IMG/VR virus record: IMGVR_UViG_3300021373_001532
Location: 1 to 28,795 of that record
From: a virus
Length of the DNA: 28,795 nucleotides
Reading direction: 5' to 3' (one strand)
Shown here: positions 1 through 24,342 of the stretch, piece by piece
Position numbering within the stretch: the first letter of the stretch is position 1
Layout: every line of letters begins with the position of its first letter
Notes under the pieces: model-generated
What the model was told of the DNA's origin: nothing
Seen by the model: the letters and a program-made list of their open reading frames with translations, nothing else
Database searches by the model: none
Translations under genes and position numbers: made by a program

Positions 1-3000
1 ACCATCGCTAGTTGATTTTCTAAATATAATAGTGTCTCCTGCACCAGCACCTTCACCAGATGAAATTACATCAACTATATAACCTGACGCACCTGCCAAA
101 CTTGGATCGTCTTGTGCTGGTGTGTTGCCATCTTGGAATATACTTCTAATAGTAGCAAGTGATGGTTTGCTAATAACTGGAGCAATGTATGTGTTGTGGA
201 AAGCATAACCTAATGGGTTATTTGCTTGAATGCCTGCTTGGGTACGCATATCGTCTGTCCATTCCGGAGCAAGACTTCCGCCGTCCCATAATTCTGTGTA
301 TTCAAACATAGCAAAGTTTAGTAGGAACAAGTATTCTTTTGCGGCTACTTCAAATGCATCTGCATCTGTTTTCCAAGCATTTGATGGAGTTTGATAACCT
401 GATGGATCCCACTTGCCGGCATCGTATGCTTCTTCCATTGCCGCATATAACTCACCTGTCTGCCAATCAGCGGCTAAGAAACTATATAATTTTATGTCAT
501 CTGCAGGTAAACCATGCATGTGTAGTGTGTGGAATACGTGTTCAATAACTTCTTGTGCGTCTATATCACCATCACCATAGCCGTCGCCTGTTGAATTTAA
601 ATACCATACCATGTCATTTTGAACATGCGTATCAAACAAGTTAGTTAGGTTCCAACTAATAACACCTGCGTCAGTTAAGAAGTTTGGAGTGTAATCTGCT
701 CCTGCACCTCTTGCTACTCTTTGTATAGTTGGTAATCCTGCGTGATAAGTTCCTGTGTCACCACTTAGTGTTTTAATTAAATTTCTTTGGTATTCTTCGT
801 TAATGCCTGCACCATTTGGATCTGTAAACAATTCAAACATACGTGCTACTTTTTCTAACCACGCATCTGGAACTGCTGTTTGTCCGCCAACACCACCTGC
901 CGCCATAATTCTTACACCGTTGGTTGTAACTTCACGTTTGAAGAAATCACTGCCATCGCCGACAACATTACTAATTGCACCATTGTTGTATTCTGGGTCT
1001 AACGAACTTCCTTCTCCATTAATATTAAGTCCGTCATTGTCTAAGAATATGGTTGTTTGCTCGCCGTCACCTGTTAAACTTTGTGTTATCGCATTTGGAT
1101 TTGCTACAGGATTACCTGTGCCAAAGTTTGGATCATCAATTCTTACACCATTTAGATATACATTATACACTACATCGTTTTCTAAAGGTTTAGAAAGAGT
1201 TATTTGTATTGTACTTCCGTCTAGTGTAATTATTTCATCTTCAAATCCGTCATCGTAACTATCCCAAGTAGTTGCATACCAAGGATCATTATCCCAACCT
1301 AGTTTGGCACCAAATTCAAAACTCTTAACTTGTACTCCACCGTAGTCAACACCATCCATTAACTGTGCAAAATCTTTTCCGTATAATCCTGATTGTGCTT
1401 CATATAAGAATTGTATGCGTTCTGCAGCATTTAGTAAGTCTAATGATCTGTTGTATGTTATTAATACAGTTGAATCTTTTGCTGGAGCAAAACTAAACTC
1501 AATTTGCCCTGTTTTTCTAGTATACCCCTTTGTCGAATCCTCAACATTTTTATATTCGTATTGGCTACTTAATGCTTGTATACCATCTATAGTTACGTTA
1601 ATTGTATTAGTACTCAACTGTAAAGGCCATTTAGTATTAAATTTAAGTTGGCTGCCTGATGCTACAAATGTTTCTTGTTCTTGTATATCTGCTAGTACAA
1701 TATCTGTTGTAATCCTATCAAACTTTTGGGCAATTTTTGTTGCTCGAACTTTACCGTTGCCTATTATTACTGATACTACAGGTTGTGTACCTTCTTGTGT
1801 TTGTGTTCCTTCAAACTGTATTAAAGGTGCTGAGTAATATCCTGTACCTGGATTTGTAATTTCAATCTTTTTAATAACACCGTTACCAATAAACGCTTTT
1901 GCTGTTGCGCCTGTTCCGCCGCCACCTACAAATGTTACTAGAGGAGTTTCAGTATATCCTGATCCTCCGTCTTTAATAAGTACTGAATCAATAAAGTATG
2001 AAGAATTATCTACCCAATGTCTTGCAGGATAGTCTGATACGTCTGTAAGTACACTTGATAATCTGTCATTCTCCACAATAAAGTCTGATGGTACAATTTT
2101 ACCAACATTTCTATTATACACAGCAGGTAAATCATAATCAGTTATAACCGAACTAGTATTATCTTTACCTTCGTATGCACTTAAATATTCACGTATATTA
2201 GTCTTATAAGGTTTAACTTCGTTAACATACTCTTCAAAACTAGGTAAGTTGTCGTTTTGATAATTTGTTTTCTGTACTAAATTACCAACATTATGTTTTG
2301 CTTTGATGAAACTTGTTTTGAACGCCCAGTCTACATATGATTGCTCTGAGAATACATATCGTAAACATGCAAAGAATAAATTGTTATATTCTAACTCTAA
2401 ATTACCTACAAAAATGTTATCTCGTAATGCTGTTAATATTTTGCGTAATGCAATCTTGTTAGTTGAATCAGAGCTAATTGTAGTTACAAATTGCAATGTA
2501 CCATCTTGTCTACCAACTGTTCTATAGTTAATAGTATAGTCTGGAACGTCAGCATTTAGTGTTTTTTCTAATAGTAACCAACCGCCTGTGCCAACATTTT
2601 CAACTTTAACAATATCACCAATTTTATCATCAATTTCATTTAATTCGTATGTTTCTTGTACAAGGTAATCAATTGATGTTAATTGACTAAATCCTGTATC
2701 GTACCAGTCAATGTAATTCCAATAATCAGATACATCATACTTTTCTTTTGATGTAATTGTAAATTCTTGTGTTTCTGAATCCCATCCGTAAATAGCCCAA
2801 TCACCGTCAAGTGTTGAATCAGCACCAACAAGTACACTTAGTGGACGTACTATTAGTGTTAACGAATCTGCATAATTTCTACCGCCGTTAACAACTGTTA
2901 CAGATGTAATTTGACCTAGTGCATTAATTGTACTTTCTAATTCTAATCCTTCACCCGTTCCAATTGCTGTAATTTTTGGACCTTTTCTTATTCCACCTGT

Positions 3001-6000
3001 TGTTGTGTTGTAAGATGGATCTGAATAACTATAACCCTTATTAATGATGTTTACTTGTGTTACTATTCCGTTAACAACTACAGGTTCTAGTATTGCAACT
3101 TGTGCTTTGGCAGTACCAATAATACTTAACTCAGCATCTGTGTCAACTCGACGATCCCATGTTGCAGAAATTGCACTAGGCTCTGGATCTTTTTCTAATA
3201 AAGTAGTAATATTATAATTGTCATCAATTAATTCTTGCTTAATAACTTTATTAATTCTAGTAAATGCTTGACTTACTGCTTCTTCTCTATTTACAAACCA
3301 ACTTTGTCTTGGTCTATTTAATACGCCATATTTTTGTTTTGCACTTAGAGCTGGATCTGGAACCGGTCTACCGTATGCATCTTGGCCAATAAGACTATCA
3401 AACCATTTAAGTTCTAATGTAGACTTAGGCTTACTAGTGTAAAGTCCTTCACTAATAATTTGATATTCGTTGTGTACGTTAATACTCTGATCGTCAATTG
3501 TCCAATATCTAAAGTTTACTGCAATATCTTGATTTTCAAGTAACTTGTCGCAATTTCTAATTACTAAACTATTAGTAGTGAGCAAATTAGCAAACTTTAA
3601 GTTTTGTGAAACAGGATCTATTATTATTGCCGCAACATCAAATGCTGATTTATTACGGTTTTCAATATTAGGCGTTGTTTTCTTATCTTTAACCCAGTAA
3701 TAATACTTTGTAGTAAATGTACCAGATATTTTATCATAATCCTGTCTAGTACAGTATGCAGATTCACCGTATTTTGTTTTGCCACTAATGCCTAAACGTA
3801 TTCCTGCAGGAGTATCTGCTTGTGTGTCCCATTGTGTAGGTGTTAGTGTAGTTTCTACCCATTCATAAATGTCTACTGACGCACCTGGTGCTAATGTATT
3901 CCAACTATTTGCACTATAAATTGCATCTCCTTGATACGCATTTAAAAACTTAACTGTACTTAAATCCCACCAAAGTTTTCCAATATTTTTTACACTCCAA
4001 CTATTATACTGATCAACAGTAACTGCTGTATTTGTTGCTGTTGTGTAAGTTGCTGGATCATAATATGTTTTAAATGATAATTCTTGTTCTGCAAGACCTG
4101 ATATCTTACCTTGTACTGGATCAATTAAATCTAATGATGTTAGGTATTCATTTGATGACGTATTGTACATAAACGAACCTTTAAATTTATCAAGATTAAT
4201 TTGATCATTTGGTTTTCTGTGTTCTGTCCAAGTATTAACGCCATCTTTTTCAAACTGTACTACTTTACCAATTGTTCCATCAATATTATCATTTATTAAT
4301 CCAACATAAACTTTATCATTCTTAACAATAATGTCTCTACCAAAGTCTTTAACATCAAAGTCTCTATAGGATAATTGCTGTCCATATACTAATGCATCTC
4401 TAACTCTTTCATATAGATATATTGATCCACTGTCAATAAGTGTTCTACTAAAGTTAGTAAATCCGTTATCGAATACTGTACCATCGTTATCATAGGTAGT
4501 ATCTAATTCTATGTTTCCGTTAGCACTTGATACTGCTAACTGATTGCCGTCGAAACTTAACTGGTATCCGAAGTTTTCAATTGGTTCACTATTCTGTGCA
4601 ACTAGTGTTTGAATTAATTCGTATCCTGTTTCTTTTTGTGCATAAACAAACACTTGTCCTTGTCTAGCAGATAAGTATGTTGATCCAGGGGCACCTACTG
4701 CAATTAGTTTACCGTCGTCGGCTACGCTAACAGTTTCTCCAAACTCCATTGACGAATTAGGTATTTCTAATATTTGGAATAACTCGTAATGTTCGTCATG
4801 ATATTTGTAAACAGCAATGCGTTTTAAATCTCCGTATGCTGAAATTGAAGCAATGGTTTTCCCGTCATCGCTAACATCAAACGATGTGCCAAATGATGTT
4901 ACATCATTTTCTAATACAGAATCATCTGCAAACTTATAACCTAATGTATTAGGAATAGATCCAATAAAGTCAATATGATCTTTAAGTTGTGTCCATTTAG
5001 TTGCTGTAAATTCTTCGCCTTGTATATTAGTTAATGCTTTATAAAAATTACCATTATAATATACAATATCATCTATGTAATAAATTACTGAATTATTATA
5101 TATGCCTCTAAACTTAACGTCTTTTGAAAGTTGCCAATCATAAACTGCACCTGTTTCGCTAGTACCGTTTAGTACTGTATAAATTTTACCAGCACCTTCT
5201 TTACTGTTTATTAATAATTTGTATAAGTTGCCAGTTTTGATTATTTTTATTTGCTGACCTAGTCTTCTACTACTTACTCTGTTAGGTAATATGTATCCAT
5301 TTACTAAGTCGTATTCACTTGTTGTTGCATTACGTTGATAAACATAAAACACACCTTCATTAGTATATGAACTTGCTTCGCCTGTACTTACTACAGGAAT
5401 GTTATAAACTTTTTCCCAGTCATTGTTTGCAACTTCAGGTACTAGTGATAAGCGTTGTGTACCGTTTCTATTTTCTTGAATCCATGTAAAGTATTCTAAA
5501 TCAAATCCTGATATTACATCACTATTAAATGACGCAAGGTCAGTTGCTCTGTTTCTAGTTGGGATAGGTAAATTTTGTGAGTGTTCAAACACCATTAACT
5601 TACCAATTGTATTATCATCAATTGAAGTTCTTAATGATGTTCCAATTACTGGACTTAGTACTTGTTGACTATCAATTTTTCTTATTTGGTATGCTGGTAA
5701 ACTTTGTGCGCCAGCAGGTCCATAATCAGCACCTTGTGTAAATGTGCCTGACTGAACTTTGATATAGTATCTTGCATCATTACCATCTCTTTGATAGTAA
5801 ACAATTTCAGCTCTACCATTAGTACCTTCTACTAAGATATCACCAACTTGTGCCTGGTCTGTTGTGTTTGTTAATACTACATCAACATAGCCGTCCCATA
5901 CATCAACTATTGTGTGAGTATCATTAATAATTTCACTAGTTAGTCCGCTAAATGTTTCGTCTTGGATTGTACCGTCTGGTCTGGCAATTTGATTTAACCA

Positions 6001-9000
6001 AATACCAAGTTGTGGATTATTGCCTAAGGCACGTTCAGCTACAACTTTATCACTTATTGCTTTGTCTGCTCTAAGTAACCATTTGTTTGATAAGATGTCA
6101 ATCCTTGCATCAGCAACTGTATTAGCATTACCGTTATAACTTATATTAGTTATGTAATGACTTTGCTTCTGTAATACTTTACCTGTTGTAAGTTGTACAG
6201 GTGGAACACTAAGTAAACTTTGAATACTTGATTTGTACGGTAACGGTGAACTTGCATCACCTATTAAACGTACATCTCTAAGTACAATGCTTGGTGCATA
6301 GTCAATAGTTCTTGCATTAGGGTTAATTTTAAAACCAGTTTCAATTGTGTCTAATGATATTTTCCAATATCCGCCCAGTACATCGCTTGTTTCAATTTGT
6401 TCGTGTGCAGGTCTTGTAAATTCACCAATTCTAAATGTAGAACTTATTTCTAATGTACCTGTTTCAGTAAATACACCATTTTTGTTATTAGCGTATATTA
6501 CTAATTTACCTAATTCAAATTTTGTATATACTACTGTTGCGTTACCTGTACTAGTTGTTACTATATCACCTATCTCAGGAACATTTAAAGGATCAAGTAT
6601 ATAAAATATTTCATCTACTTTTGATTGGATTGTATGTACGTTAGATGTAAGCCATTCAGTGTTTACACGAGTTTCTGTGTCAACTATTTCAATATTAATA
6701 GTACTGTCAGTATAATCTACTCCGCCTGCAACTAAGTTTACAGCGGTTATTCTGCCATTCGTAACTGTTGCAGTTGCTACAGCACTATTGCCGGTGCCAG
6801 TGTCTGTAATTTTTATTACCGGATTAGTATATCCAGTACCTTGTATTGGTGTAGGATTACTAGGGTCTGATAAATCATTTTTAATTGTTAAATTATATAT
6901 TGTACCGTTATCATCTAGTTCATACTCTAATTCACAACCAAAGCCGACCATCCTATTGTCAAATAATGATCTAACTTTTCTTAAGTTACCGTTAAACTGA
7001 CCACCCGGAATAGCACTTCCTTGAAATGCCGCACCTTGTATATTATTTGTACCATTAACTAACGTATCTAAAGCATATGTTGTGTACAAGTATACTTCTT
7101 TAGTTGATTTAACTTTAACATAGTACTTGTTGTATTCTAATCCTGTAACACCTTTATTTTGTACTTCATTAAGTGGTAATGTTTGATCCGAATTATCAAA
7201 CCCTGATGTTGAAATAGTATTATTAGGAACATCAGTAATTATTATTTGGTCGCCATCTACTAGACCGTGTTCAAGATTTGTCTGTAGTCTAATACCTGTA
7301 GTAACATTTGTCACATTAGGAAATTCTGGCGGTACACTTTCAAATTTAATATCAATTATTTCAGATTTATCAATTGGCTCATACGCATGACTTACTTCGT
7401 TCCAGTCAAAATATACTTTGTCTCCAGGAACACTACCTTCGTATGCTGTAGCTGGTGCTCTTACAAGTATATGGTCCGTCTCAGTATTAGTTAGTGGATA
7501 ATCACCTGTTAAAATATTTTTATTTTCACCTACACTAGACCAATTAGCAGGTATTCTTGGACCTGGGTTTGATCTTGCTGTAGCAATATAGATATCTCCA
7601 AGATACGTTGTAATATTTCCAACATTATAAATTATAGATTCGTCAAATTCGGCATACTTGTCTAGTAAATATTCTTTAACTTGAGGTGCCGAATCAAATG
7701 TATCAAACACAACATTTGATGTCTGTCCTTTAACAATTCTTCTTGCTTTCCACAGACTATTGTTATATTCAACAACAGATGCAAATGGATATGTTATACT
7801 TGCATCAAAGTCGTCTTTGAAATTAGATTTTACATTTGATGCTTCAGGAGATGCAATTACAAGGTATTCACCATCTGGGCTCATTGTAATAGATTCGCCA
7901 AATTTTGAATTAACACTTGATAGTCCAGAAATTGGTGAAAGCACTTGACTTAAACTTGCACTTGAATCGTCACTAGTATAAACAAACACTTTGCCGTCTT
8001 CGTTGTTTGGTGCTCCTACAACAATTACTGTGTTATCATCTGATGCTGTAATAGAACTACCAAATAACGGATTTGTAGAATCTGCTTCTAAAGGATTTAT
8101 TATTGTTAAGTTATCGTGATAAGACGCAGAATTTTTAAGAACTCCCCATCTACCGTCGCCCATATCATCAACCCAAAGTAGCTCTCTATTGTCAATAGTG
8201 TTTTGTGTATATGAATTTGCTTCGGGCAATGATTTTACTCTGTTACTTACAAATTTAGTTAACACGCCTTTGGCGTTAACAATAGGTTCATCTAGCGTTA
8301 TTGTTGTTGCAACGGTTACTGTATTTGTTGCTGAACTAGTAACTTTAAAGAATCCTTCAAATCCTGTTAAATTTGTAATACCAATAATATCGTCTTTTAC
8401 AAATGAACTTCTTCTATCTAATGATATAGTAGCACTTGTTCCGTTTGCTGTTACCCCAGTTACTATAAATCCACTGTCAATATGTTTATAAACATTCCAG
8501 CTTTGATCTTCAAAAGTTACCCAAACATATTCGCCTTGATTTAAATCATCAATAGCAATATTTAAAATATCACTTTTGTCTACAACAGTATATTTTATAT
8601 CCTCAGTTCTAACATACCCTGCTGTTCTAACTTGTGTTTCGCCTTCTGGTACAAACTTAGTTGGAAACGGAGTATTATTATAGTTAGACGGTTTTAAATA
8701 TACTTCGCTTTCGGGTATATTATATATTAAGTTGTCTGTTTCTGGCTCGTCTGTTAACTGTATTGGCTGAGGACTTAATTTAAACTTTTCTTCATCTAGT
8801 TTAATTTCTAATTCGTCAAAGCCGTCAGCAGCACCGTATTGTCCTAAACGTAATGCCCATTCTTCAAAAAACTCTAAACTTTCTTTGTCTGCTGCTCCAA
8901 GTGCATCAAACAATTTAGTAAGTGCATTTTTAGTACCTTTGTCTTGAATATAACCTTGGTAGAATTTATACTGGCTAACATCGTCATTAATTATATTAGC

Positions 9001-12000
9001 AAGATAGTTTCTCTTTTGATAACCAATTAAATGTTGAGCAACTTCTTGTTGATCAAGATCAAAATTATCAGTATCTAGATCATAAAAGTCTGCAAACTGG
9101 TCAACTTTGTAATTAATGTTAGTTAGTAATTGCGACTCTGGTTTAGCATCAAGTCTTAACCAGTCATTTTCATTAAAGTTTTGTGTTCCTGATACTTTTT
9201 TGTAAGCACTATAATAAAATTCTTTGTTTTTAACAATGCTTCCAATTTCATAATCTTTGTATTGCTCCCACAAAGTAATTTCAGCACTGTCATATAAAAA
9301 GCCCGGTATATTTAAACTTCCGTTCCAGTCTGCTGTTCTATATCCTAAGACTCTAATTCTTTCTTGTCTATATCCTGCTTGACGATCATATATTACATCT
9401 TTAAACTCAGTTTCGTTATCTAAAATAACAACGTGTTCTGTCTGCTCAGCTGCTAACTTAATAGCATATATTCCGTCTGCTGTATTCTTAGGTTTAATAT
9501 TAAATTCATCATCAGTTCTTGATACTGTTAATACATCTTCTTTAAGTTTTGTTCCGTCGGCTTTAAAAATTGAGTATCCAAAGAAATTATTAAATACATC
9601 TCCAATTACAGTAAAGTCGCGTTTAAATTTAACGCCGTCTGCCAATGGACTTAATGATATTAAACTTCCTGTGTCCCAGCCTTGTGTTGTCCAGAATAAG
9701 AATTCTTTAGCACTTAACTTAAAGTTTTTAATTGATTGCATATCTGCATCAAAGCCTTCAAAGTTAAAACCTAATGTTTCTAAATATCTTTGATATCCTA
9801 ATAGAAAGTCTACTACTTCTTGACTTGTTCTAAATAGTGTTCCGTAAGGTAAACTTAATATTTCTGATTTCCAGGATGAACGGAAAATTGCTTCGCGGCC
9901 ACCTTCTTGTGGAAGAGCTGCTAATTTTATAAATTTGCTTCCATCAAATGTTTGTCCACTAGTATGTGCTTCTTTAACTCTGTAGTACAAATCGTTATAC
10001 TCTACAACTTGTCCTTCTAAGTATTGTTTTGATTCACTCCACTGTACAAATGTCTCGCTAACGCCTCCAATACTTACTAGAGGATCGCCATTAATAACAT
10101 TGTAATCGTAATATTTGAATACAGGATTAGTACTATCATATCCTCTAACTATATAACCCAGAGCACTTCGTTCAATAACAACTCCGCTGTAAGTAATAAT
10201 ATCAGTTGGTGAACTTTGTGAAAGTATTATATTGTAGTTTTCTTGTGGTATAAAAACATTACCTTCATTCAACGGTGTTCTTGAATCCAGTATTAAATTA
10301 AATTTAGATTTATCAGTAAACCCGCCTAGTCTAAATGATAATTGATTTGTAAGGTTTGCTAATTTATCTTGATACTCTGTATAATTAGTAAGAACATTAC
10401 TTGACAAATAGTTTGCAATAAAGTTTACTAGTCCTGCTGTTAACACTCGCACATCAACTGCTTGACTATTATTAGGGAATTTTAATTCACTAAGATTGAT
10501 TCTTTTTGATGTATCAGAATAAACAATTTGTCCTGCATTATTTCTTATAGTTCTAGATCTATCAAATCCAAGTCCTATAATTTTTGAAGGTTGATTCAAA
10601 CACCAAGATCTTAATAATGCAAATGGATACTCACTACTTCTGCGCCAGGCTGTTTCTGCAGGTGCTTCGTCACCAAATACAAACGGTGACGCTGTTAAGT
10701 TACTAATAAATCCTTGTGCATATCCACTCTCTAATGGGCTTATTAAATTGCCGCCATCGTCGACCGGTAAATGAGCAGTTAAGTTTGTTCTCTTGTATTG
10801 TTCCTTAATTACAATAGGCTTATTAGGTTCTCTAATTACACCATTTTGTATATCTTCCCATAGGAATAAATTATCTTTAGTGTATGGTGCAGGACCATAT
10901 ACAGTTTCCCACCAACTTGGCTGTTTAAAGAATCCTTGCATTTCCCAAGGATGTGTATGTGGACGATCTGTATCATATGCATCTTTGTAAACAGCTCTCC
11001 AATATCCTGCTAATTTCTTGCCACTTGGGGATGTCATAAAACTATAATTGTAAGTAAACGGGTTACCTCTTACATAACCTGTATTTTCAGTATAGTCTAC
11101 ATCACCTACTGAAGCAAGCCAACTTGCAAAATCACTAATTAATGCATTATCAATATCTTTTTTGTATACGCCTGTATTTCTATCTTCCCCACCAATAAAA
11201 TCATGTATATTAACAACATTTGGATCGTAGGATATTTTAATGTTATTGTATATTCTTTTTTCTAATTCTAATATTAAATCATCTCTATAATCATTAAATG
11301 CTAAAATCTTAGAACCATCATGTCCTTGAATAACTTTTCTAGTAGTAATGTAAGTACTATCATCAAAAATCTGAGGGACAAACTTGGGATATAATCCTAG
11401 TTTGGTTGGTGTTGGTGGAATAAACGAACCGTCTGTTGTTTCATATTCAAAAATATCAATTATGTCGCCGTTTGTTGTAGGCTTACTTATTACACAAAAC
11501 CCTTCATTGTTAAATGTATAATCGTTTCCGTAAATAAGTTGTTCACCATTAATATAAACTGTTACTGCTTTTACGCTTAGTTCATTATTATTATGTGTTT
11601 GTGAAAGTGCATAAAACTGATTATTTGTATCAAAGACAGTATATGTAATTTTCTTTTCACCACCCGACGGTGCCATATCACTAAAGTAAAACGGCATGTC
11701 TATACTTCTATTTTGGCCTAGTTCTTTAAGTATAACATCAACGTGACCTTTTACAGTTCCGTCATATCCTGTTGTTAAACTAGTTTGTAAAAATGTTCTT
11801 TTAAACTTTGCATACTCGCGTCTATTAAATTCAAGAGCTTTAATAATGTTTGTATCTTTGTCTGTTAAATGATATAACGATAAATTAATTGGACCAGTGT
11901 GTTGTACAAACTTTTTACCATATAATGCAATATTACCTAAATCTCTAAGATTACTATTACCAGGATATACACCACTAAAGTTATTAATTTCTTCAACTAC

Positions 12001-14343
12001 TGTACTAATATGATCATTAACTTCACCTAGTGTAAATGTTTCAATATTATCGTTACTAGGATTTCTTTCAAAGTTTGCTGGTACTTCATACAACCCATTG
12101 TCATTTTTAAGTGTATGGGATTTAGTTTTAATTAAAACAATATCATTTTCATTTAATTCTGATGTAAATATAATTTTTGCATCATGGTTTGTTCTATCAA
12201 TAGTGTAATCAATATTTTCAAATTTAAGTGAATTGTTAACAAAGACTTTTACTATTAAATCAGTTAGCTCAGCACTTCGATCATATGTATCAATAACAAA
12301 TTCGGTTTGGTTATCTAAACTAGTATACTGTCTCAATACATATTGACTACTAGACATTGGTGCTTTAATCCAAGCATTTACATAATCAAATGTATCAATG
12401 TTTTTAAATTTTTGTAAACTATACGTATCAGTTTTATTAGTAATAACGTCAGTACTAATTACTGTAGGTGTATATGTAAATGTATCTGATAATAAATTAA
12501 AATCAAAAACAATATCACCTACATTAGAAATACTTCTATAACTTAACGGAAAGCCTAGTTCAGAATCATTAGATCCTGTACCTACTTTATACGAAAATAC
12601 TTTGTTACCTTCAAACGTTGTATTAGGATAGTATTCTGAATCGCCTATACTGTATCCAGACTCGTCAAATAAGTCAAATAACGGTTGCTGGTTAACGTCA
12701 GTTTTTTCTTGTGTAACATTCCAAGTTGAACCGTTAAAGTAAAACATTTTACCTTTATTTTCAACACCATTTAATACTAGTACTGTTTCGTTAGTAATCG
12801 GTGAAGAGTCTGTTTCTTCTATCAAAGATATTTGACGTCTTCCTTTGTGGTTGATAAATGAAACTTTAAATATTTTTCCAGACTGACGTATGTCTTCTTC
12901 TGCTGTAAATAGTACACGCATACCATTAACAAGTTTTACTCCGTCAACTGTATATCCTATTGCACCTTCAATAGTAGAAAATATATCTTTAGTAAATGTA
13001 TCAACTAAATCTACATTAGTTTTACTTTGTGATCCAAATTGGAAAAGTTTTAATCCTGAATTAAATTCAATAATAGGTCTTGATGCTCTTGCACTTTGGT
13101 CAACTGATATGCCTTGATTATTATAGGCTGCAGATTTTTCGATTACATCTCTATGGAACCATCTATTGTGTCTTGACCAAGGACTTCTTTCAGGAGAAGC
13201 ACGATTAATAACAATATAATCTTTAGTATTTGTATAACCACTAGCATTGTCAAATGGCAATCTATCAAATGAATTTGTATCAAACGGTATTGATAAGTCT
13301 GTTACATAACTACTAGTAACTTCTAAGTCAGTTTCACTAACTAACTTAATTTTATCACCTACTCCTTCAACATACCATTCGCCTTCTGCATATTTTGCAG
13401 GAGTTACATTTCCTAAAAATTCAACTTTCATACCATTTGATAATGAAAGTCCTTTTACTGTAGTATAATTCTTTTTACCAATAATTTCGTTTTCAACATT
13501 AAGGTCTGTATTTTCGTCAATGTCTTTAATTTTGATTAAGCCACCATTATTAATATCATTGTTTGCAACGTAATATAATAGTTCAGGTGCACCCGGAGAC
13601 ACTGTAAATGTAATAGAACCTTTTTCTACATTTTGTGCTGAAACGCCGTCATCATAATTAAACTCTGGATCTAATGTTTTTTTAGTTTTTATTGTAAACG
13701 GAAATCCTTCTGAATTAATTTCAAAAGTATAAGTCTGTCCTCTATATAAAGTTAAACTTGGTAATTGTGTTTGTCCGTCTGGTGAAAATATGTAAGCAAG
13801 GTTGTCTGCATTGTTAAACAGCTCAACAGTGTATGTACTTTCTACACCTCGTGACTGACCTGCAATGCTAATAATTTGCGGACCGTTTGGTAACCAATAA
13901 TACTCACGAAAGTTAACAACTTTATCTAAGTCTATATTTGGATTCCACGCATAATATTCTTGTGCGTTAAGACTGTCTTGATTTTGTGAATTACCGCCAA
14001 AGTTTGCTATTTGATTAATATAATCAATATAATCTTTTCTAAACGTATAATTACCTAGATCGTTTTTAATTACTAGTGAAGGTTCTAATTGATAGTTTTT
14101 CCTATCATTAGAAATTTCATTAATATACGAATCGTCTGCTACATATGCTTTTGATTCTTTTCTTCCAATAAATCCATTTAGTTTTTCTGCAACACCCGGT
14201 TGCACCATTTGGTCTAATGTACTTTCAAGAAACTTTTGATTAGTTTGTGTTCTAAAATATTTTGGAAGTAATGCAACGCTCTTTTGGTTGCCTTTACCAT
14301 TATTTGGTAATGGAAATTCTTTCTGGTCATTATCATATGCCAT
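1..14343 (-). CDS. Giant T4-like virion structural protein, partial (C-terminus beyond base 1)
   Basis: The reading frame starts with ATG at 14343-14341 and runs in frame to base 1. I checked most of the codon rows between 1 and 7000 and spot-checked the rest, and found no stop. It therefore encodes at least 4781 residues, roughly half a megadalton. The start overlaps the gp6 stop (TAATG), with an AGGT ribosome-binding match just upstream. The N-terminus begins MAYDNDQKEFPLPNNGKG. Visible parts include a Trp/Pro-rich block near residues 1131-1150 (HPWE, then PSWWETVYG), two FG-GAP-like blocks (about 2094-2167 and 3151-3365), three Gly-Tyr/Pro-Val modules, and an EF-hand-like loop plus His cluster at 4587-4610. 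Position at the end of the baseplate operon suggests a very large baseplate-peripheral or tail-fibre-associated protein. Giant structural proteins, some annotated VrlC-like, occur at this place in marine T4-like phages as far as I recall. No transmembrane segment or signal peptide stands out. The CDS is certain; the function is inferred from context. Confidence 0.92.
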   Translation of the reverse strand, partial: MAYDNDQKEFPLPNNGKGNQKSVALLPKYFRTQTNQKFLESTLDQMVQPGVAEKLNGFIGRKESKAYVADDSYINEISNDRKNYQLEPSLVIKNDLGNYTFRKDYIDYINQIANFGGNSQNQDSLNAQEYYAWNPNIDLDKVVNFREYYWLPNGPQIISIAGQSRGVESTYTVELFNNADNLAYIFSPDGQTQLPSLTLYRGQTYTFEINSEGFPFTIKTKKTLDPEFNYDDGVSAQNVEKGSITFTVSPGAPELLYYVANNDINNGGLIKIKDIDENTDLNVENEIIGKKNYTTVKGLSLSNGMKVEFLGNVTPAKYAEGEWYVEGVGDKIKLVSETDLEVTSSYVTDLSIPFDTNSFDRLPFDNASGYTNTKDYIVINRASPERSPWSRHNRWFHRDVIEKSAAYNNQGISVDQSARASRPIIEFNSGLKLFQFGSQSKTNVDLVDTFTKDIFSTIEGAIGYTVDGVKLVNGMRVLFTAEEDIRQSGKIFKVSFINHKGRRQISLIEETDSSPITNETVLVLNGVENKGKMFYFNGSTWNVTQEKTDVNQQPLFDLFDESGYSIGDSEYYPNTTFEGNKVFSYKVGTGSNDSELGFPLSYRSISNVGDIVFDFNLLSDTFTYTPTVISTDVITNKTDTYSLQKFKNIDTFDYVNAWIKAPMSSSQYVLRQYTSLDNQTEFVIDTYDRSAELTDLIVKVFVNNSLKFENIDYTIDRTNHDAKIIFTSELNENDIVLIKTKSHTLKNDNGLYEVPANFERNPSNDNIETFTLGEVNDHISTVVEEINNFSGVYPGNSNLRDLGNIALYGKKFVQHTGPINLSLYHLTDKDTNIIKALEFNRREYAKFKRTFLQTSLTTGYDGTVKGHVDVILKELGQNRSIDMPFYFSDMAPSGGEKKITYTVFDTNNQFYALSQTHNNNELSVKAVTVYINGEQLIYGNDYTFNNEGFCVISKPTTNGDIIDIFEYETTDGSFIPPTPTKLGLYPKFVPQIFDDSTYITTRKVIQGHDGSKILAFNDYRDDLILELEKRIYNNIKISYDPNVVNIHDFIGGEDRNTGVYKKDIDNALISDFASWLASVGDVDYTENTGYVRGNPFTYNYSFMTSPSGKKLAGYWRAVYKDAYDTDRPHTHPWEMQGFFKQPSWWETVYGPAPYTKDNLFLWEDIQNGVIREPNKPIVIKEQYKRTNLTAHLPVDDGGNLISPLESGYAQGFISNLTASPFVFGDEAPAETAWRRSSEYPFALLRSWCLNQPSKIIGLGFDRSRTIRNNAGQIVYSDTSKRINLSELKFPNNSQAVDVRVLTAGLVNFIANYLSSNVLTNYTEYQDKLANLTNQLSFRLGGFTDKSKFNLILDSRTPLNEGNVFIPQENYNIILSQSSPTDIITYSGVVIERSALGYIVRGYDSTNPVFKYYDYNVINGDPLVSIGGVSETFVQWSESKQYLEGQVVEYNDLYYRVKEAHTSGQTFDGSKFIKLAALPQEGGREAIFRSSWKSEILSLPYGTLFRTSQEVVDFLLGYQRYLETLGFNFEGFDADMQSIKNFKLSAKEFLFWTTQGWDTGSLISLSPLADGVKFKRDFTVIGDVFNNFFGYSIFKADGTKLKEDVLTVSRTDDEFNIKPKNTADGIYAIKLAAEQTEHVVILDNETEFKDVIYDRQAGYRQERIRVLGYRTADWNGSLNIPGFLYDSAEITLWEQYKDYEIGSIVKNKEFYYSAYKKVSGTQNFNENDWLRLDAKPESQLLTNINYKVDQFADFYDLDTDNFDLDQQEVAQHLIGYQKRNYLANIINDDVSQYKFYQGYIQDKGTKNALTKLFDALGAADKESLEFFEEWALRLGQYGAADGFDELEIKLDEEKFKLSPQPIQLTDEPETDNLIYNIPESEVYLKPSNYNNTPFPTKFVPEGETQVRTAGYVRTEDIKYTVVDKSDILNIAIDDLNQGEYVWVTFEDQSWNVYKHIDSGFIVTGVTANGTSATISLDRRSSFVKDDIIGITNLTGFEGFFKVTSSATNTVTVATTITLDEPIVNAKGVLTKFVSNRVKSLPEANSYTQNTIDNRELLWVDDMGDGRWGVLKNSASYHDNLTIINPLEADSTNPLFGSSITASDDNTVIVVGAPNNEDGKVFVYTSDDSSASLSQVLSPISGLSSVNSKFGESITMSPDGEYLVIASPEASNVKSNFKDDFDASITYPFASVVEYNNSLWKARRIVKGQTSNVVFDTFDSAPQVKEYLLDKYAEFDESIIYNVGNITTYLGDIYIATARSNPGPRIPANWSSVGENKNILTGDYPLTNTETDHILVRAPATAYEGSVPGDKVYFDWNEVSHAYEPIDKSEIIDIKFESVPPEFPNVTNVTTGIRLQTNLEHGLVDGDQIIITDVPNNTISTSGFDNSDQTLPLNEVQNKGVTGLEYNKYYVKVKSTKEVYLYTTYALDTLVNGTNNIQGAAFQGSAIPGGQFNGNLRKVRSLFDNRMVGFGCELEYELDDNGTIYNLTIKNDLSDPSNPTPIQGTGYTNPVIKITDTGTGNSAVATATVTNGRITAVNLVAGGVDYTDSTINIEIVDTETRVNTEWLTSNVHTIQSKVDEIFYILDPLNVPEIGDIVTTSTGNATVVYTKFELGKLVIYANNKNGVFTETGTLEISSTFRIGEFTRPAHEQIETSDVLGGYWKISLDTIETGFKINPNARTIDYAPSIVLRDVRLIGDASSPLPYKSSIQSLLSVPPVQLTTGKVLQKQSHYITNISYNGNANTVADARIDILSNKWLLRADKAISDKVVAERALGNNPQLGIWLNQIARPDGTIQDETFSGLTSEIINDTHTIVDVWDGYVDVVLTNTTDQAQVGDILVEGTNGRAEIVYYQRDGNDARYYIKVQSGTFTQGADYGPAGAQSLPAYQIRKIDSQQVLSPVIGTSLRTSIDDNTIGKLMVFEHSQNLPIPTRNRATDLASFNSDVISGFDLEYFTWIQENRNGTQRLSLVPEVANNDWEKVYNIPVVSTGEASSYTNEGVFYVYQRNATTSEYDLVNGYILPNRVSSRRLGQQIKIIKTGNLYKLLINSKEGAGKIYTVLNGTSETGAVYDWQLSKDVKFRGIYNNSVIYYIDDIVYYNGNFYKALTNIQGEEFTATKWTQLKDHIDFIGSIPNTLGYKFADDSVLENDVTSFGTSFDVSDDGKTIASISAYGDLKRIAVYKYHDEHYELFQILEIPNSSMEFGETVSVADDGKLIAVGAPGSTYLSARQGQVFVYAQKETGYELIQTLVAQNSEPIENFGYQLSFDGNQLAVSSANGNIELDTTYDNDGTVFDNGFTNFSRTLIDSGSIYLYERVRDALVYGQQLSYRDFDVKDFGRDIIVKNDKVYVGLINDNIDGTIGKVVQFEKDGVNTWTEHRKPNDQINLDKFKGSFMYNTSSNEYLTSLDLIDPVQGKISGLAEQELSFKTYYDPATYTTATNTAVTVDQYNSWSVKNIGKLWWDLSTVKFLNAYQGDAIYSANSWNTLAPGASVDIYEWVETTLTPTQWDTQADTPAGIRLGISGKTKYGESAYCTRQDYDKISGTFTTKYYYWVKDKKTTPNIENRNKSAFDVAAIIIDPVSQNLKFANLLTTNSLVIRNCDKLLENQDIAVNFRYWTIDDQSINVHNEYQIISEGLYTSKPKSTLELKWFDSLIGQDAYGRPVPDPALSAKQKYGVLNRPRQSWFVNREEAVSQAFTRINKVIKQELIDDNYNITTLLEKDPEPSAISATWDRRVDTDAELSIIGTAKAQVAILEPVVVNGIVTQVNIINKGYSYSDPSYNTTTGGIRKGPKITAIGTGEGLELESTINALGQITSVTVVNGGRNYADSLTLIVRPLSVLVGADSTLDGDWAIYGWDSETQEFTITSKEKYDVSDYWNYIDWYDTGFSQLTSIDYLVQETYELNEIDDKIGDIVKVENVGTGGWLLLEKTLNADVPDYTINYRTVGRQDGTLQFVTTISSDSTNKIALRKILTALRDNIFVGNLELEYNNLFFACLRYVFSEQSYVDWAFKTSFIKAKHNVGNLVQKTNYQNDNLPSFEEYVNEVKPYKTNIREYLSAYEGKDNTSSVITDYDLPAVYNRNVGKIVPSDFIVENDRLSSVLTDVSDYPARHWVDNSSYFIDSVLIKDGGSGYTETPLVTFVGGGGTGATAKAFIGNGVIKKIEITNPGTGYYSAPLIQFEGTQTQEGTQPVVSVIIGNGKVRATKIAQKFDRITTDIVLADIQEQETFVASGSQLKFNTKWPLQLSTNTINVTIDGIQALSSQYEYKNVEDSTKGYTRKTGQIEFSFAPAKDSTVLITYNRSLDLLNAAERIQFLYEAQSGLYGKDFAQLMDGVDYGGVQVKSFEFGAKLGWDNDPWYATTWDSYDDGFEDEIITLDGSTIQITLSKPLENDVVYNVYLNGVRIDDPNFGTGNPVANPNAITQSLTGDGEQTTIFLDNDGLNINGEGSSLDPEYNNGAISNVVGDGSDFFKREVTTNGVRIMAAGGVGGQTAVPDAWLEKVARMFELFTDPNGAGINEEYQRNLIKTLSGDTGTYHAGLPTIQRVARGAGADYTPNFLTDAGVISWNLTNLFDTHVQNDMVWYLNSTGDGYGDGDIDAQEVIEHVFHTLHMHGLPADDIKLYSFLAADWQTGELYAAMEEAYDAGKWDPSGYQTPSNAWKTDADAFEVAAKEYLFLLNFAMFEYTELWDGGSLAPEWTDDMRTQAGIQANNPLGYAFHNTYIAPVISKPSLATIRSIFQDGNTPAQDDPSLAGASGYIVDVISSGEGAGAGDTIIFRKSTSDG
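511..585 (-). other. EF-hand-like loop plus histidine cluster in the giant protein
   Basis: Residues 4587-4598 read DGYGDGDIDAQE. This fits the 12-residue EF-hand loop, with acidic positions 1, 5, 7, 9 and 12, Gly at 6 and Ile at 8; position 3 is Tyr instead of Asp/Asn. It is followed directly by VIEHVFHTLHMHG, which places His at 4602, 4605, 4608 and 4610 with Glu4601 in front. Bound metal is inferred from the residues only. The order E-H-x-x-H is neither the HExxH nor the HxxEH zincin signature. Confidence 0.55.
1810..1970 (-). repeat. Gly-Tyr/Pro-Val structural module 3 in the giant protein
   Basis: This is the clearest copy. GGSGYTETPLVTFVGGGG is followed by TGATAKAFIGNGVIKKIEI and TNPGTGYYSAPLIQFEG. 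The half units GxGYxxxPLVxFxG and GxGYxxAPLIxFxG mirror each other, so the module is itself an internal duplication. Confidence 0.65.
2840..3039 (-). repeat. Gly-Tyr/Pro-Val structural module 2 in the giant protein
   Basis: The translation reads INKGYSYSDPSYNTTTGG, a Gly-rich stretch, then a strand ending in VTVVNGGRNYADSLT. It follows the same GYxxxxP, NGxI/LGQI and GGxxYxxS order as the modules at 6640-6840 and 1810-1970. It is more diverged than module 3. Confidence 0.5.
4250..4893 (-). repeat. FG-GAP-like protein repeat block B in the giant protein (4 copies)
   Basis: Residues about 3151-3365 hold four blade-like units beginning FGTSFDVSDDG, FGETVSVADDGK, FGYQLSFDGN and FGRDIIVKND. Each has a following hydrophobic strand; in unit two it ends VGAPG. 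Between units lie outer strands such as GQVFVYAQ and GSIYLYER. The spacing is 50, 57 and 76 residues. Family knowledge: FG-GAP repeats form beta-propellers used in binding and adhesion. That this block binds a receptor is inference. Confidence 0.72.
6640..6840 (-). repeat. Gly-Tyr/Pro-Val structural module 1 in the giant protein
   Basis: The translation reads GTGYTNPVIKITDTGTG, then VTNGRITAVNLVAGG and VDYTDSTINIEIVDT. The pattern is GxGYxxPxV, a Gly-rich turn, an NGxI strand, then a second G-x-x-Y unit. It recurs twice more in the protein, at 2840-3039 and 1810-1970. It is likely a small beta-rich module of phage structural proteins. The function is unknown. Confidence 0.6.
7843..8064 (-). 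repeat. FG-GAP-like protein repeat block A in the giant protein (2 copies)
   Basis: Residues about 2094-2167 contain two copies of a unit starting FGSSITASDD and FGESITMSPDG, each followed by a hydrophobic strand ending in VVGAP or VIASP. The Phe-Gly starts are 54 residues apart. This is the pattern of FG-GAP/beta-propeller blades. Two blades cannot make a closed propeller alone, so other blades may be too diverged to see or may come from elsewhere in the chain. Confidence 0.7.
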
Positions 14344-17300
14344 TAGTAACCTGAGCCCCCGTTACTTGAATTGCTTGAGCTACTAGAGCTACTAGAGCTA
14401 CTTGACGAACTACTTGAACTACTCGAACTACTTGCCACTTGGCTTACAGTATTGTTTTTAACTTCTGTCACTACCGCTCCTGTTGCTTTAAGTTTTGAAG
14501 CAGTTACTGCTGATATAATTTCAACATCTGCTACTGTTGCTCCGTTAATAAAAATTTCATCAGCTTCTGCTTTTATTTCAAATAAACTACCAAATGCTGA
14601 GTTTGTTTTATTAGGAACAATAACAATTGACGAAATATCTGGTGATAATTCGTTCATAATATATGTGCTTAGTTCTGAGAAGTAAAAAGTTTCTCCAAAG
14701 TCCCAATTTTCAAGTGCAAAGAATCTGTTTACAGCTGATATAACATTTGCTTTTACTTCGTTATCGTTAACAACTCTATCAGCATTTTTTACTATCTTAA
14801 ATGTTGCTTGTAAATCAGTGTTAGATGCTGTACCAAATAATGGTTTATATTTTACTGGGTGATAAATTACATCGTCACTAATTGATTTAATTTTGTTTAT
14901 TTCACTACCATAGTTGGTATATAAACTATCTGAAGTAGGTGTTACTGGAGCAACTGGTATTGCACCCTGTAACCACTGTCTATATAAAGTATCATACGAT
15001 CTAGTTAAAACGTAAACATCAATAATGTTACTACTGCTTGGATCTATTCTGTTACTTTCATCAGCAGCATGTTCGTATTGGAAGATAATGTTATCTCTAC
15101 CACTAAATGCTCTATAGTCAACTGTAAGTGTTAATGTTTCTGCTTCTTCATTGTATACTTTAAATAAGTCCACATCAACAATATAAAATATTGTGCCGTC
15201 AGTGAACGACGACAGTCCTGCTGTAGTAATATCTGACTCTGTTGCAACAACTTTTTTATCAGATGTTCTCCAAGATACAAATCTAAAGTCATCAATGCCA
15301 TCATAGTTTGTATATTTTTCTTGCATTACATATTGATCTTTTAAATCAGGAGGTGTACCAACAAACTGTGTAAACATATCTGGGTCGTCAACTACTCCGT
15401 CATCGTCAGAGTCAAAAAAGCCTACTTGTATTTTTTTGCTGTCAACATAGCCTTCTGCATCTCTATATTCTTGTAATATTTCCCAATCAAACGGAACTGT
15501 AAACGGCTGCGTTGATCCTGGTTGTGTGTTAATAGACATAATTCTAACTTTGTCTTTAACAATTTTATTTGTTTGAGGATCATATACTTTATCACTACTG
15601 TCAAAATAAAATCTAATTTCTTTGTCACTTTCGAAGACGTATCTCTGACCGTGTGTTGTAATTGTATATGTTTCTCCGTCAGTATTAAATAATAGTAACC
15701 AACTGTTGTCTAGTTGTTGATTACTAGTGTCTCCAGTCTTGCCCATTCCAAACGCTGATGTTTTATCTAAATTGCTTTCAGTAATTAAACGCCATAAATT
15801 TTCGCTAGTACTGTAACGTAATCCAAATGTTTTATATTGGAATACTTGGTCAATAATTTGTGTTTGTAAATCATTATCTAATAATGTTGCAAACTTTGGT
15901 ATAATTCTTTCAATAATTGGATATGCTTCTGTGCCTGCTGGAGCTGCAGGAATTACATCGTTGAATACAATAGGTCCTCTGCCGTCGGCATAATTTTCTT
16001 TACCATTACCATTTATAGCAGTAACCTTAGTCCATTTATATTTTGTTGCTCCTGTATGTAAAGGTTTACCAACTTCATCTAACATTAATGTGCCGTCTGG
16101 CATAAAATGATAACCTTCTGGAGCAATAAATTTAACCATTGCACCTGGTTGTACAAATTTTAGTGTGCTACCAGTAAATGTCGAAACTGTATATTTTACA
16201 TTTTGCAAGTCCATTAAGTAACCTGTAGAAATATTTTGATCTTTAGTTACTTGTACAAACTGTGCATTTAGATCTGTAACTGTTTGTACCGGAAATTTAC
16301 TATAGTAAAAATTTCTAAGTTTAGCATCTAAAAGTAACGGTTCAATAGTAGAACTAATAATCCCTTGAATATCGTTTCTTGTTGTAAATGTAAAATTAAC
16401 TTTACTATCTAAGTACTGTGTATATACAGCACCGTCTTTACCATATAGGTTAGTTTTAGAATATTTGCCTGTAGCATCTAGTAGATCAAAATATCTTGAT
16501 ATGCCGCTAGATGTTCTGTTAACTGCTTTTACTTTAACTATTTCTTGACTTACAGCCAATGGAGCAACATTATAGTCTTCTCCAGTAATCATTCTATTTT
16601 GTGTATAGTATGTTGAAGGAGCATTTGATTTAATGCTTTCGTTGCTTTCGCTTTCTGCTGAATTGTCAACTGTGTATTTTAATTCATATTCAATACTTAA
16701 AACTTCTTGTGTTCCTGTTTTACTAACATACGGAACAGTAATGTTTATATTAGTCATTTCGTCTGGGCTAATTACAAAACTTCTATTATCACTTGCTCTG
16801 TAATAAACTTTAAAATTGCCTTTAGGCAACGTGCCAAAAACGCCATCACTAAAGATTAAACTAATTCTATCTTGTACTCTTGTTAAAACACTATAAACAT
16901 TTCTAATATTTTTACTTAAACTGTTATAAACAATATTGTTACCTTCAACTGAATTTACTTTGCTCCATAACTCAGTTTCGTTACCGGTTGTGTCTAATTT
17001 ATAAAGCCATACGTCACTATTGTTTACATTAATAGCATCTAAGTTTACTGTTTGGTTAGTACTTGGCGTACTAATTGAAAAAGTTCCTTGGTCTAAAGAA
17101 CCTTGTCTAAAGTGTGAAAAGAATCCTGTATTGTTACTACCAGCACCTTGTCCGTCATCTTGATATATAAACGCAAAGTTGTTTCCTGGCAACGGTGCTT
17201 CTTCTAGTATTGCATTACTTTCAATATTAGTTGAAACAATTTCAAATGTAGTTCCTCTACCGCTAATATTTTTTGTAAAGCCAAAGTTAGGAACATCAGT

Positions 17301-17879
17301 GTTAAGAGCATTAAATCTATATTGCTCTGCACTTATTCCATTTACTGTATCTTTTTTAACTGGTCGTCCTACAACTCCGTTAGCAGGTAATGCTGAATTT
17401 AAAACTTTAATAAACTGTTCATACCAGTCTTGATTTGAAACATCGTTCCATACAATAGTTTGGCCTGCTAAGTTATTACCATTAGAATCTATAATGTCTT
17501 CTGTAGTAGTAATACTTTCCATTTTAAGAAGACCATTAGCTGCTTGGTTACGTTTAGGATTATAAGATAACAATCTTGCTAAACGTATAACACTTTCTCT
17601 GCGTTCTGCTAGTTCTAAAAAATTCTCTCTTGCATTAAGGTCTGTACGGAATGCGAGGTTTTGTCCTAAGTAAGCAATTAAGTCAATTAGGGCAAGGTAT
17701 TCACTACTTTCAATATAGTCGTTGAAATCCTCAGGATAATTTTTCCTAAGGTAATTAATCATTGTACGTCTTAAATTGTCAAAGTCGTAACTCTGAAAAT
17801 CAGCATTTTTGAAAGACTGGTAGACACGTTTCCAGTCCTCTGCAATTAATAATCTGTTTTGTCTATCTGTTGACGACAT
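14343..17879 (-). CDS. gp6: Baseplate wedge protein gp6, enlarged
   Basis: This is a core subunit of the T4-type baseplate wedge; in T4, gp6 dimers form the inner iris that links wedges around the hub. The N-terminus (residues 1-120, with DWKRVYQSFKNADFQSYDFD and YLALIDLIAYLGQNLAFRTD) is the part I recognise as gp6. At 1178 residues it is far longer than T4 gp6 (about 660), so the middle and C-terminal parts are additions or strongly expanded. Residues 823-834 (DSDDDGVVDDPD) form a calcium-loop-like motif. Residues 1150-1168 are all serine, followed by NSSNGGSGY. The ATG start has a GAGGA ribosome-binding site and a late-promoter motif upstream. It lies between gp25 and the giant structural gene and overlaps the latter by one base. 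Confidence 0.88.
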   Translation of the reverse strand: MSSTDRQNRLLIAEDWKRVYQSFKNADFQSYDFDNLRRTMINYLRKNYPEDFNDYIESSEYLALIDLIAYLGQNLAFRTDLNARENFLELAERRESVIRLARLLSYNPKRNQAANGLLKMESITTTEDIIDSNGNNLAGQTIVWNDVSNQDWYEQFIKVLNSALPANGVVGRPVKKDTVNGISAEQYRFNALNTDVPNFGFTKNISGRGTTFEIVSTNIESNAILEEAPLPGNNFAFIYQDDGQGAGSNNTGFFSHFRQGSLDQGTFSISTPSTNQTVNLDAINVNNSDVWLYKLDTTGNETELWSKVNSVEGNNIVYNSLSKNIRNVYSVLTRVQDRISLIFSDGVFGTLPKGNFKVYYRASDNRSFVISPDEMTNINITVPYVSKTGTQEVLSIEYELKYTVDNSAESESNESIKSNAPSTYYTQNRMITGEDYNVAPLAVSQEIVKVKAVNRTSSGISRYFDLLDATGKYSKTNLYGKDGAVYTQYLDSKVNFTFTTRNDIQGIISSTIEPLLLDAKLRNFYYSKFPVQTVTDLNAQFVQVTKDQNISTGYLMDLQNVKYTVSTFTGSTLKFVQPGAMVKFIAPEGYHFMPDGTLMLDEVGKPLHTGATKYKWTKVTAINGNGKENYADGRGPIVFNDVIPAAPAGTEAYPIIERIIPKFATLLDNDLQTQIIDQVFQYKTFGLRYSTSENLWRLITESNLDKTSAFGMGKTGDTSNQQLDNSWLLLFNTDGETYTITTHGQRYVFESDKEIRFYFDSSDKVYDPQTNKIVKDKVRIMSINTQPGSTQPFTVPFDWEILQEYRDAEGYVDSKKIQVGFFDSDDDGVVDDPDMFTQFVGTPPDLKDQYVMQEKYTNYDGIDDFRFVSWRTSDKKVVATESDITTAGLSSFTDGTIFYIVDVDLFKVYNEEAETLTLTVDYRAFSGRDNIIFQYEHAADESNRIDPSSSNIIDVYVLTRSYDTLYRQWLQGAIPVAPVTPTSDSLYTNYGSEINKIKSISDDVIYHPVKYKPLFGTASNTDLQATFKIVKNADRVVNDNEVKANVISAVNRFFALENWDFGETFYFSELSTYIMNELSPDISSIVIVPNKTNSAFGSLFEIKAEADEIFINGATVADVEIISAVTASKLKATGAVVTEVKNNTVSQVASSSSSSSSSSSSSSSSSSSSNSSNGGSGY
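14376..14432 (-). repeat. 9-bp tandem repeat encoding the gp6 poly-serine tail
   Basis: On the minus strand there are six 9-bp units of the form AGTAGYTCN, three AGTAGTTCR then three AGTAGCTCW, separated by one TCA codon. Each unit encodes Ser-Ser-Ser, so the length can change in steps of three residues without a frameshift. The mixed AGY/TCN codons lie over gp6 residues 1150-1168. Confidence 0.85.
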
Positions 17880-24264: not shown

Positions 24265-24283
24265 ATTACTCTCCTATATAAAG

Positions 24284-24291
24284 TATTTAGT
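24284..24291 (-). promoter_or_regulatory. Late promoter motif upstream of the baseplate operon
   Basis: The minus strand reads ACTAAATA, a TAAATA core with one mismatch to NATAAATA. It ends 19 nt before the gp48-like ATG, almost the same distance as the motif before gp6. It directly abuts and shares one base with the -35 box of the divergent gp55 promoter. Confidence 0.5.
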
Positions 24292-24319
24292 TGACTTTAT
24301 TAACAGAGTAGTTTATAAT
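24291..24319 (+). promoter_or_regulatory. Sigma70-type promoter for gp55
   Basis: TTGACT at 24291-24296 and TATAAT at 24314-24319 are separated by 17 nt, one mismatch from the bacterial consensus. The gp55 ATG lies 23 nt after the -10 box, with a GGAG ribosome-binding site at 24334-24337. This fits early or middle expression by unmodified host polymerase. Confidence 0.8.
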
Positions 24320-24342
24320 AGATACTAACAACTGGAGAAATC

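Follow-up and report, generated by a model that had tools for sequence, protein, structure and literature searches.

A mobile domain in the putative giant tail gene of a PA5oct-like phage

Several phages carry, directly downstream of gp6, a single gene for a protein of thousands of residues: gp355 in PA5oct (Arenbergviridae), gp180 in Atu_ph07, and SWTG_00060 in S-RIM2. A gene of the same sort lies in the DNA considered here, positions 1 to 28,795 of the IMG/VR virus record IMGVR_UViG_3300021373_001532 (the window, 28,795 nucleotides in all). Toward one edge of the window this gene contains a module of about 310 residues that comparisons between genomes show to be mobile: near relatives lack it at the same site, and it recurs within other genes of other phages.

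That phage tail proteins shuffle their domains is known. PMC10684548 describes recent sharing of fragments between phage proteins that are otherwise unrelated, among them tail proteins; the words "cyanophage" and "Synechococcus" do not occur in its main text. The present work differs in following one domain over 18 flank contexts, with pairs of full and empty sites. Word searches of the open literature, covering titles and abstract openings, yielded no description of the module among the matches listed. The text of the RaK2 paper (PMC3622015) contains none of the strings tried for its giant gene 070, and the MIJ3 paper (PMC6892783) names four virion proteins by mass spectrometry.

From sequence comparison and structural modelling, we tentatively favour the reading that the window holds a giant PA5oct-like tail gene with a recently gained, mobile, zincin-like domain, possibly an enzyme borne on the virion. 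The parts of this reading differ in strength, and are weighed separately below.

The giant gene and its empty relatives

The first-pass annotation of the window described one structural gene of at least 4781 codons, of a size that rivals or exceeds tape-measure proteins, with a domain layout unlike that of any T4 baseplate protein and transcribed with the baseplate genes. The frame itself is confirmed. Read from 14,343 to 1 on the minus strand, its 4781 codons contain zero stops in a six-frame stop count; the other five frames of 1..14343 hold 184-712 stops each, with a longest stop-free run of 170 codons. The ATG lies within a TAATG, in a one-base overlap with the gp6 stop that makes joint transcription with the baseplate genes plausible; G+C content (GC) by codon position, about 0.45/0.36/0.17, is gene-like over the full length; and the frame is still open at window base 1. 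Its parts are as follows (L numbers are our labels for loci):

1..14343, minus strand: giant virion protein at the gp7 position, with 4781 codons inside the window; matches phrog_10938 (E=0); has a complete module-free homologue of 5254 residues
1018..14343, minus strand: host (scaffold) part, residues 1-4442; 97.0% identity, 0 gaps, to module-free L178
52..1011, minus strand: mobile module with linkers, residues 4445-4764; core at window 70-1002, residues 4448-4758; absent from L171-L176
526..552, minus strand: module motif E-V-I-E-H-V-F-H-T, module residues 151-159; E151, E154, H155, H158 and T159 each in 51/51 alignment rows
328..339, minus strand: module motif K-E-Y-L; E223 in 51/51 rows; candidate third metal ligand
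1..39, minus strand: scaffold resuming after the module, residues 4769-4781; matches residues 4448-4460 in the empty gene at 77% (E 2.9e-4)
9952..10044, minus strand: CBM5/12-like domain, residues 1434-1464 (Pfam PF02839, 3.6e-7)
7978..8067, minus strand: FG-GAP repeat, residues 2093-2122 (Pfam PF14312, 1.4e-7)

The protein matches the "virion structural protein" family phrog_10938 in 4 stretches (1039.7 bits), in keeping with the proposed virion-type protein in a baseplate operon; the gene is the known "gp7-position" giant gene and not a new kind. The concern that a frameshift or assembly artefact had created the frame is answered by L178 (G028:C1:47001-66800, on an 83.9-kb contig), a complete, module-free giant gene of 5254 residues that aligns with window residues 1-4442 over 4442 columns with no gap (95.7% identity in DNA). 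Because this homologue is complete, gap-free and 97% identical, the frame is real. The 14.3 kb are one frame but not one uniform structural gene, because about 320 residues near the window edge form an insert that L178 lacks and that the first-pass annotation missed.

The window's gene order (gp5-lysozyme, gp25, gp6, giant gene, divergent gp46/gp47-type nucleases) is that of PA5oct, and gp6 followed by a giant gene also occurs in Atu_ph07, S-RIM2, and S-B43. Genes at the gp7 position encode 6378 residues in S-RIM2, 5254 in L178, 4449 in Atu_ph07, 4337 in S-B43, and 3857 in PA5oct (gp355); the giant size is therefore real but ordinary for the position. The Atu_ph07 protein aligns with the window's at 25-31% identity over several long stretches, in an alignment without the module. 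Those of S-RIM2 and S-B43 align in short stretches only, the module excepted; in S-RIM2 the module lies not in SWTG_00060 but two genes further on. Virion proteomics had been proposed as a check on the gene, and the record of the syntenic PA5oct gp355 carries the note "ESI-MS/MS". T4 gp7 has about 1000 residues, far from the 4781 or more found here. Its relation to the giant protein is a matter of annotation ("similar to gp7", in the S-RIM2 record), and no solved T4 baseplate chain was matched by the giant protein or by a 3-row profile of its first 900 residues. By homology and gene order, the giant frame is a "gp7-position" wedge or tail protein of a PA5oct-like large myovirus, its size ordinary by itself.

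Different relatives emerge when the end of the protein is searched. With the last 1000 residues as query, 142 records were found, 85 of them at >80% identity and 57 at <60%; among the matches listed (best 60 of 142), all cover residues 4445-4764 only. A megablast search with all 14,343 bases returned 85 records, the best 10 of which match 52-1002 only. This segment is 89% DNA-identical to S-RIM2 and S-RIM12, and its GC is 0.415 in the module against 0.335 in the flanks. The S-RIM2 module lies inside the baseplate gene SWTG_00062, between gp9 and gp8. The product of that gene, a baseplate wedge subunit of family phrog_708 (labelled T4-like GC 1018 in its Syn33 copy), is a different protein from that of the giant gene; its module copies are the most similar to the window's among phage records (92-93% amino acid identity). 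The phrog_708 profile, of 1383 positions, spans residues 1-1711 of the 1713-residue protein and leaves the module as an insertion. While 291 phage records match the upstream flank of this type of host, the module is present in 85 records, all hosts taken together.

The case for mobility is made by full and empty sites on collinear genes. Relatives without the module include L171-L174 (96% identity over a 395-residue upstream query), L175 (81%), and L176 (50%); in L171-L175 the frame runs on for 812-813 residues beyond the module-free site. The window's module maps between residues 4442 and 4448 of the empty gene, and the final 13 window residues are resumed scaffold. In L078 the same site is occupied within an independent 28-kb contig, with about 748 residues after the module. 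Isolates display the same relation in the other host gene: the module is part of a 1723-residue protein in S-RIM12 RW_04_0709; the same protein in W1_24_0910 has 1404 residues and no module, which suggests that the empty form is viable; and the flanks of the two agree at 95.7% over 717 residues before the site and 99.3% over 685 after it. Syn33 also has the module, in a protein of about 1720 residues, and the S-RS29 and ACG-2014a versions of this protein are likewise empty.

Host proteins, fold, and possible activity

Two scans of viral sequences (IMG/VR) confirmed 148 and 217 stretches, from each of which 80 were kept. Altogether 91 loci were analysed (the window, S-RIM2, S-B43, Syn33, and 87 IMG/VR loci, some being near-duplicates), and contexts were clustered by 200-residue flanks. 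The upstream flanks fall into 18 clusters (87 of the 91 loci have enough flank) and the downstream flanks into 16 (80 loci), giving 21 combinations; the module forms the C-terminus in 10/91. Host open reading frames (ORFs) matched baseplate-wedge families (phrog_708, phrog_13163) and tail fibres when 16 were scanned against PHROGs, three having no match at 1e-5. A Pfam scan of nine found Peptidase_S8 in five, and one Laminin_G protein (L055). Since baseplate and fibre proteins are among the hosts, the module may be displayed on the virion. Phage subtilases host it repeatedly (L030 7521-10034, L046, L044, L081, L054), at several positions; in L030 it sits between the Asp and His motifs of the subtilase, all three motifs being intact by eye.

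The module itself matches nothing above noise in Pfam, NCBIfam, PHROGs, PDB sequences, or plasmids. Seven residues (E151, E154, H155, H158, T159, H161, and E223) are invariant in 51/51 alignment rows, and E223 lies on a predicted helix, 214-232, that follows the E154-H158 motif. An AlphaFold model built from the 51 rows (pLDDT 91.7, pTM 0.91) was compared with known structures by VIA-align. Zinc metallopeptidases of several families fill ranks 1-31 (Z 3.9-6.0), two of these entries being aminopeptidase N complexed with coronavirus proteins; from Z 3.8 downward come unrelated structures, intermixed with further metallopeptidases. A first model had retrieved the same classes, with a best Z of 6.2. 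The top ranks include zincins such as PPEP, M9 collagenases, M1 aminopeptidases, and the catalytic domain of anthrax lethal factor. From the ERAP2 and IRAP alignment ranges, which end at module residue 163-165, and from the residue numbers of these enzymes, their HExxH helix would fall on E154-H155-V-F-H158.

Several observations weigh against a displayed, zincin-like enzyme. All 51 rows have E-H-x-x-H in place of the HExxH of zincins, with which no sequence similarity was found. Every VIA-align Z is <8, a range in which the tool warns that a match may mean merely a common arrangement. Foldseek returned no significant match for the module against PDB and BFVD, nor did a second PDB search that used the better model; the best E values were 0.52, 0.087, and 0.68. 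Searches found no record of module activity, metal content, or virion detection, and the ESI-MS/MS note concerns PA5oct, which is absent from the 85 module-bearing records. Moreover, many host proteins are subtilases or lack an identity, rather than being established virion proteins. Because Foldseek gave nothing significant and all Z values lie below 8, the zincin reading is a hint at fold class; and because HExxH was sought and is absent, the module is not filed as a zincin.

Homologues of the module occur in marine bacteria, mostly in metagenome-assembled genomes (MAGs). A scan of genome contigs with a single module sequence found no locus; with the alignment it found 12, in Opitutales/Verrucomicrobia, Actinomarinales, and Flavobacteriaceae, at 44-68% identity over the domain and with the same motif. 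Here, in contrast to the phage hosts, most copies form the C-terminal part of a small protein, and some of these proteins begin, by eye, like lipoproteins. In the order of the Opitutales MAG G037, 3/132 whole genomes match, all three among the 12 loci; in that of the actinobacterial MAG G033, 16/42 genomes match, at least two already among the 12 and most others weak and distant. All 7 distant Actinomarinales-order sequences fetched keep E-V-[VI]-E-H-L-L-H-T. In one Opitutales ORF of 738 residues (L096) the recognised domain seems, by eye, to be preceded by another copy that has diverged strongly.

If the structural hints hold, the module would have a zincin-like (metallopeptidase) fold, with a shared site E-V-x-E-H-x-x-H-T plus Glu, and would act from the virion as an enzyme, probably a metal-dependent one. 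While the phage adsorbs, it would cleave a layer of protein or peptide on the surface of the host, carried by any outer protein able to accommodate it. Such an enzymatic role is possible, and we hold to it with some doubt. A bolder claim seems unlikely: that the module founds a new enzyme family, the E-V-x-E-H-x-x-H-T zincin-like proteases, shared with marine bacteria, and serves marine phages as a "portable weapon", a payload of which each genome normally has one and which distant myoviruses move, in frame, among their baseplate, fibre, and protease genes.

A possible, though rather doubtful, alternative is that the module is a displayed binding domain (an adhesin or a zincin-fold pseudo-enzyme) with no active enzyme. 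The lack of HExxH speaks for it, and so do binding-like domains elsewhere in the giant protein: CBM5/12, with look-alikes near residues 1698 and 3088, and FG-GAP, with look-alikes near 2148 and 3151 (all four by regular-expression pattern). Laminin_G in the L055 host points the same way, as does PMC10684548, according to which domain mosaicism of recent date in phages is often linked to proteins of the baseplate or of receptor binding. However, all 51 rows agree in the polar, site-like residues E151, E154, H155, H158, and E223, and 7/7 distant bacterial homologues fetched have kept the motif, unlike a binding surface under host-driven change.

Recency and proposed manner of spread

The window and S-RIM2 modules differ by dN 0.046 and dS 0.458 (nonsynonymous and synonymous divergence), although the gp6 proteins of the two phages align over 126 columns only, at 28.6% identity. 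Between phages the module is much more similar than any sequence that surrounds it. The module is under purifying selection, with dN/dS about 0.1. Its GC at third codon positions exceeds that of the host protein in 74/91 loci, and module and host values correlate at r -0.37, which is suggestive only. A tree was built from 66 of 87 full-length copies, those at >=98.5% identity being dropped. It needs 32 context changes, against a least possible 17 and a shuffled mean of 47.3, so that context is clustered yet often changing; the 32 are not a count of events, because the tree model does not allow for recombination within the module. From the starred branches alone, each of the two largest groups requires at least 7 changes.

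Within the giant gene family there are about six insertion places (residues of the empty gene):

About 4442-4450: window, L078, L010, L028, L048, L135
About 4410: L029, L140, L141
About 4730: L008, L018, L019
Between 4820 and 4908: L022
About 4660-4715: L016, L035; weak alignments
About 1205-1224: L023; with about 320 further unmatched residues

At places 4410 and 4730 the scaffold has lost at most about four residues. These patterns suggest that a self-contained domain of about 310 residues was acquired recently, in one loop of the giant gene. The cassette would spread by rare illegitimate in-frame insertion into tolerant loops or C-termini, and then by homologous recombination between module copies, with selection for one displayed, useful copy.

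Proline-rich linkers ("PAVPAV", "GSPAIP") flank the module on both sides in 7/66 copies, against 2/556 background windows; they may help recombination, and most copies are without them. In L010, similar proline-rich linkers flank the module at 7956-8006 and 8937-8987 (51 nucleotides, 71%), which could favour excision or insertion.

A selfish recombination cassette, spreading through its high identity without benefit to the phage, is an improbable alternative. Mosaic identity speaks for it: over 12 consecutive 60-column bins L021 and L030 show no difference, while their flanks are unrelated. (Similarly, the L011 and L022 modules are 98% identical and the next 60 bases identical, with unrelated upstream sequence, a pattern of either within-module recombination or metagenomic chimerism.) As bubble merging in metagenomes could inflate such identity, the mobility claim is carried by the isolates. 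No end repeats are shared among the 4 loci examined, nor were the terminal inverted repeats of DNA transposons seen there, and the module has no other coding capacity. It has no match above noise to any Pfam, NCBIfam, or PHROG family, and so none to a recombinase. The low dN/dS and a copy number of normally one per record also argue against a purely selfish element. The module occupies one place per record in 85/85 phage records; and in a search of 30 whole contigs, possibly fragments, 26 have it, 25 of these as a single copy. The remaining four contigs belong to empty relatives: L171, L172, L175, and L176.

That an assembly chimera joined a cyanophage module to the end of a PA5oct-like contig is very improbable. 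The module does lie at a contig end, and the contigs of L032, L047, L053, and L068 start inside it, as is expected of a sequence repeated across a metagenome; but the frame passes through the module into the matching next scaffold residues, L078 is occupied at the same site in mid-contig, and two different genes hold the module in the isolates S-RIM2, Syn33, S-RIM12, and S-B43.

Still less probable is a self-splicing, intein-like element, for which the precise, in-frame placement speaks, even between the Asp and His motifs of the L030 subtilase. Against it stand the C-terminal placement in 10/91 loci, the lack of an intein-type Pfam match, and the position just after the module: of 66 distinct copies, 8 have a stop there, and the rest have any of 11 residues, with S or T in 18 copies. 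Least probable is an ancient, vertically inherited and very conserved domain, for which the bacterial homologues at 44-68% identity might be cited; near relatives lack the module at the collinear site, it occupies unrelated genes and several places of one family, and dS is 0.46 between phages whose gp6 proteins barely align.

Recent gain of a mobile domain, the reading preferred here, also has points to answer. The flank clusters, 18 in number, do not equal as many protein families, since several of them belong to one family at different places. No clean insertion point is seen in L009, which clusters with the giant gene, and the window has only 51 more bases beyond the module. Along the module, copies from one context are barely more alike than copies from different contexts (a difference in identity of 0.006-0.044), and no clear trend leads toward its ends. 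One contig (G009) carries a further copy, 56% identical, which lies at the contig edge within a different giant ORF.

Neighbouring genes and implications

Upstream of the giant gene lie further structural genes, and beyond them genes on the opposite strand:

14343..17879, minus strand: gp6-like baseplate wedge protein, 1178 residues (phrog_10646, 1.8e-300)
17938..18381, minus strand: gp25-like baseplate wedge protein (phrog_261, phrog_43)
18398..20872, minus strand: gp5-like hub/tail-lysozyme protein (phrog_13211, phrog_181)
26240..28015, plus strand: gp46-like recombination nuclease subunit; the best matches listed are PA5oct-type phages (49%), and it was used to place the phage

The gp6-like protein has 1178 residues against 676 in S-RIM2, with a long serine run at its end, just ahead of the giant-gene start. 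The gp5-like hub protein has a C-terminal chitinase/endolysin-like part (PF00182 3.3e-6, phrog_181). A strand switch at window 24264-24343 separates structural genes, running leftward, from an ORF at the position of the PA5oct late sigma factor and the gp47/gp46-like genes, running rightward; the gene order there is as in PA5oct, and the sign of GC skew flips just past the switch.

Together, these comparisons catch one unclassified domain moving, with presence/absence pairs on collinear genes and several places in one giant gene family. Module identity is high between a PA5oct-like phage and cyanophages despite gp6 proteins that can barely be aligned. In practice, the module sequence can mislead both gene annotation and metagenome assembly. 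Because the domain has been caught moving, two questions become testable in culture: what benefit a phage gains from mounting an enzyme-like domain, and how in-frame insertion happens. If the module does prove to be a new mobile enzyme family, the unit of transfer and selection would be the protein domain, not the gene.
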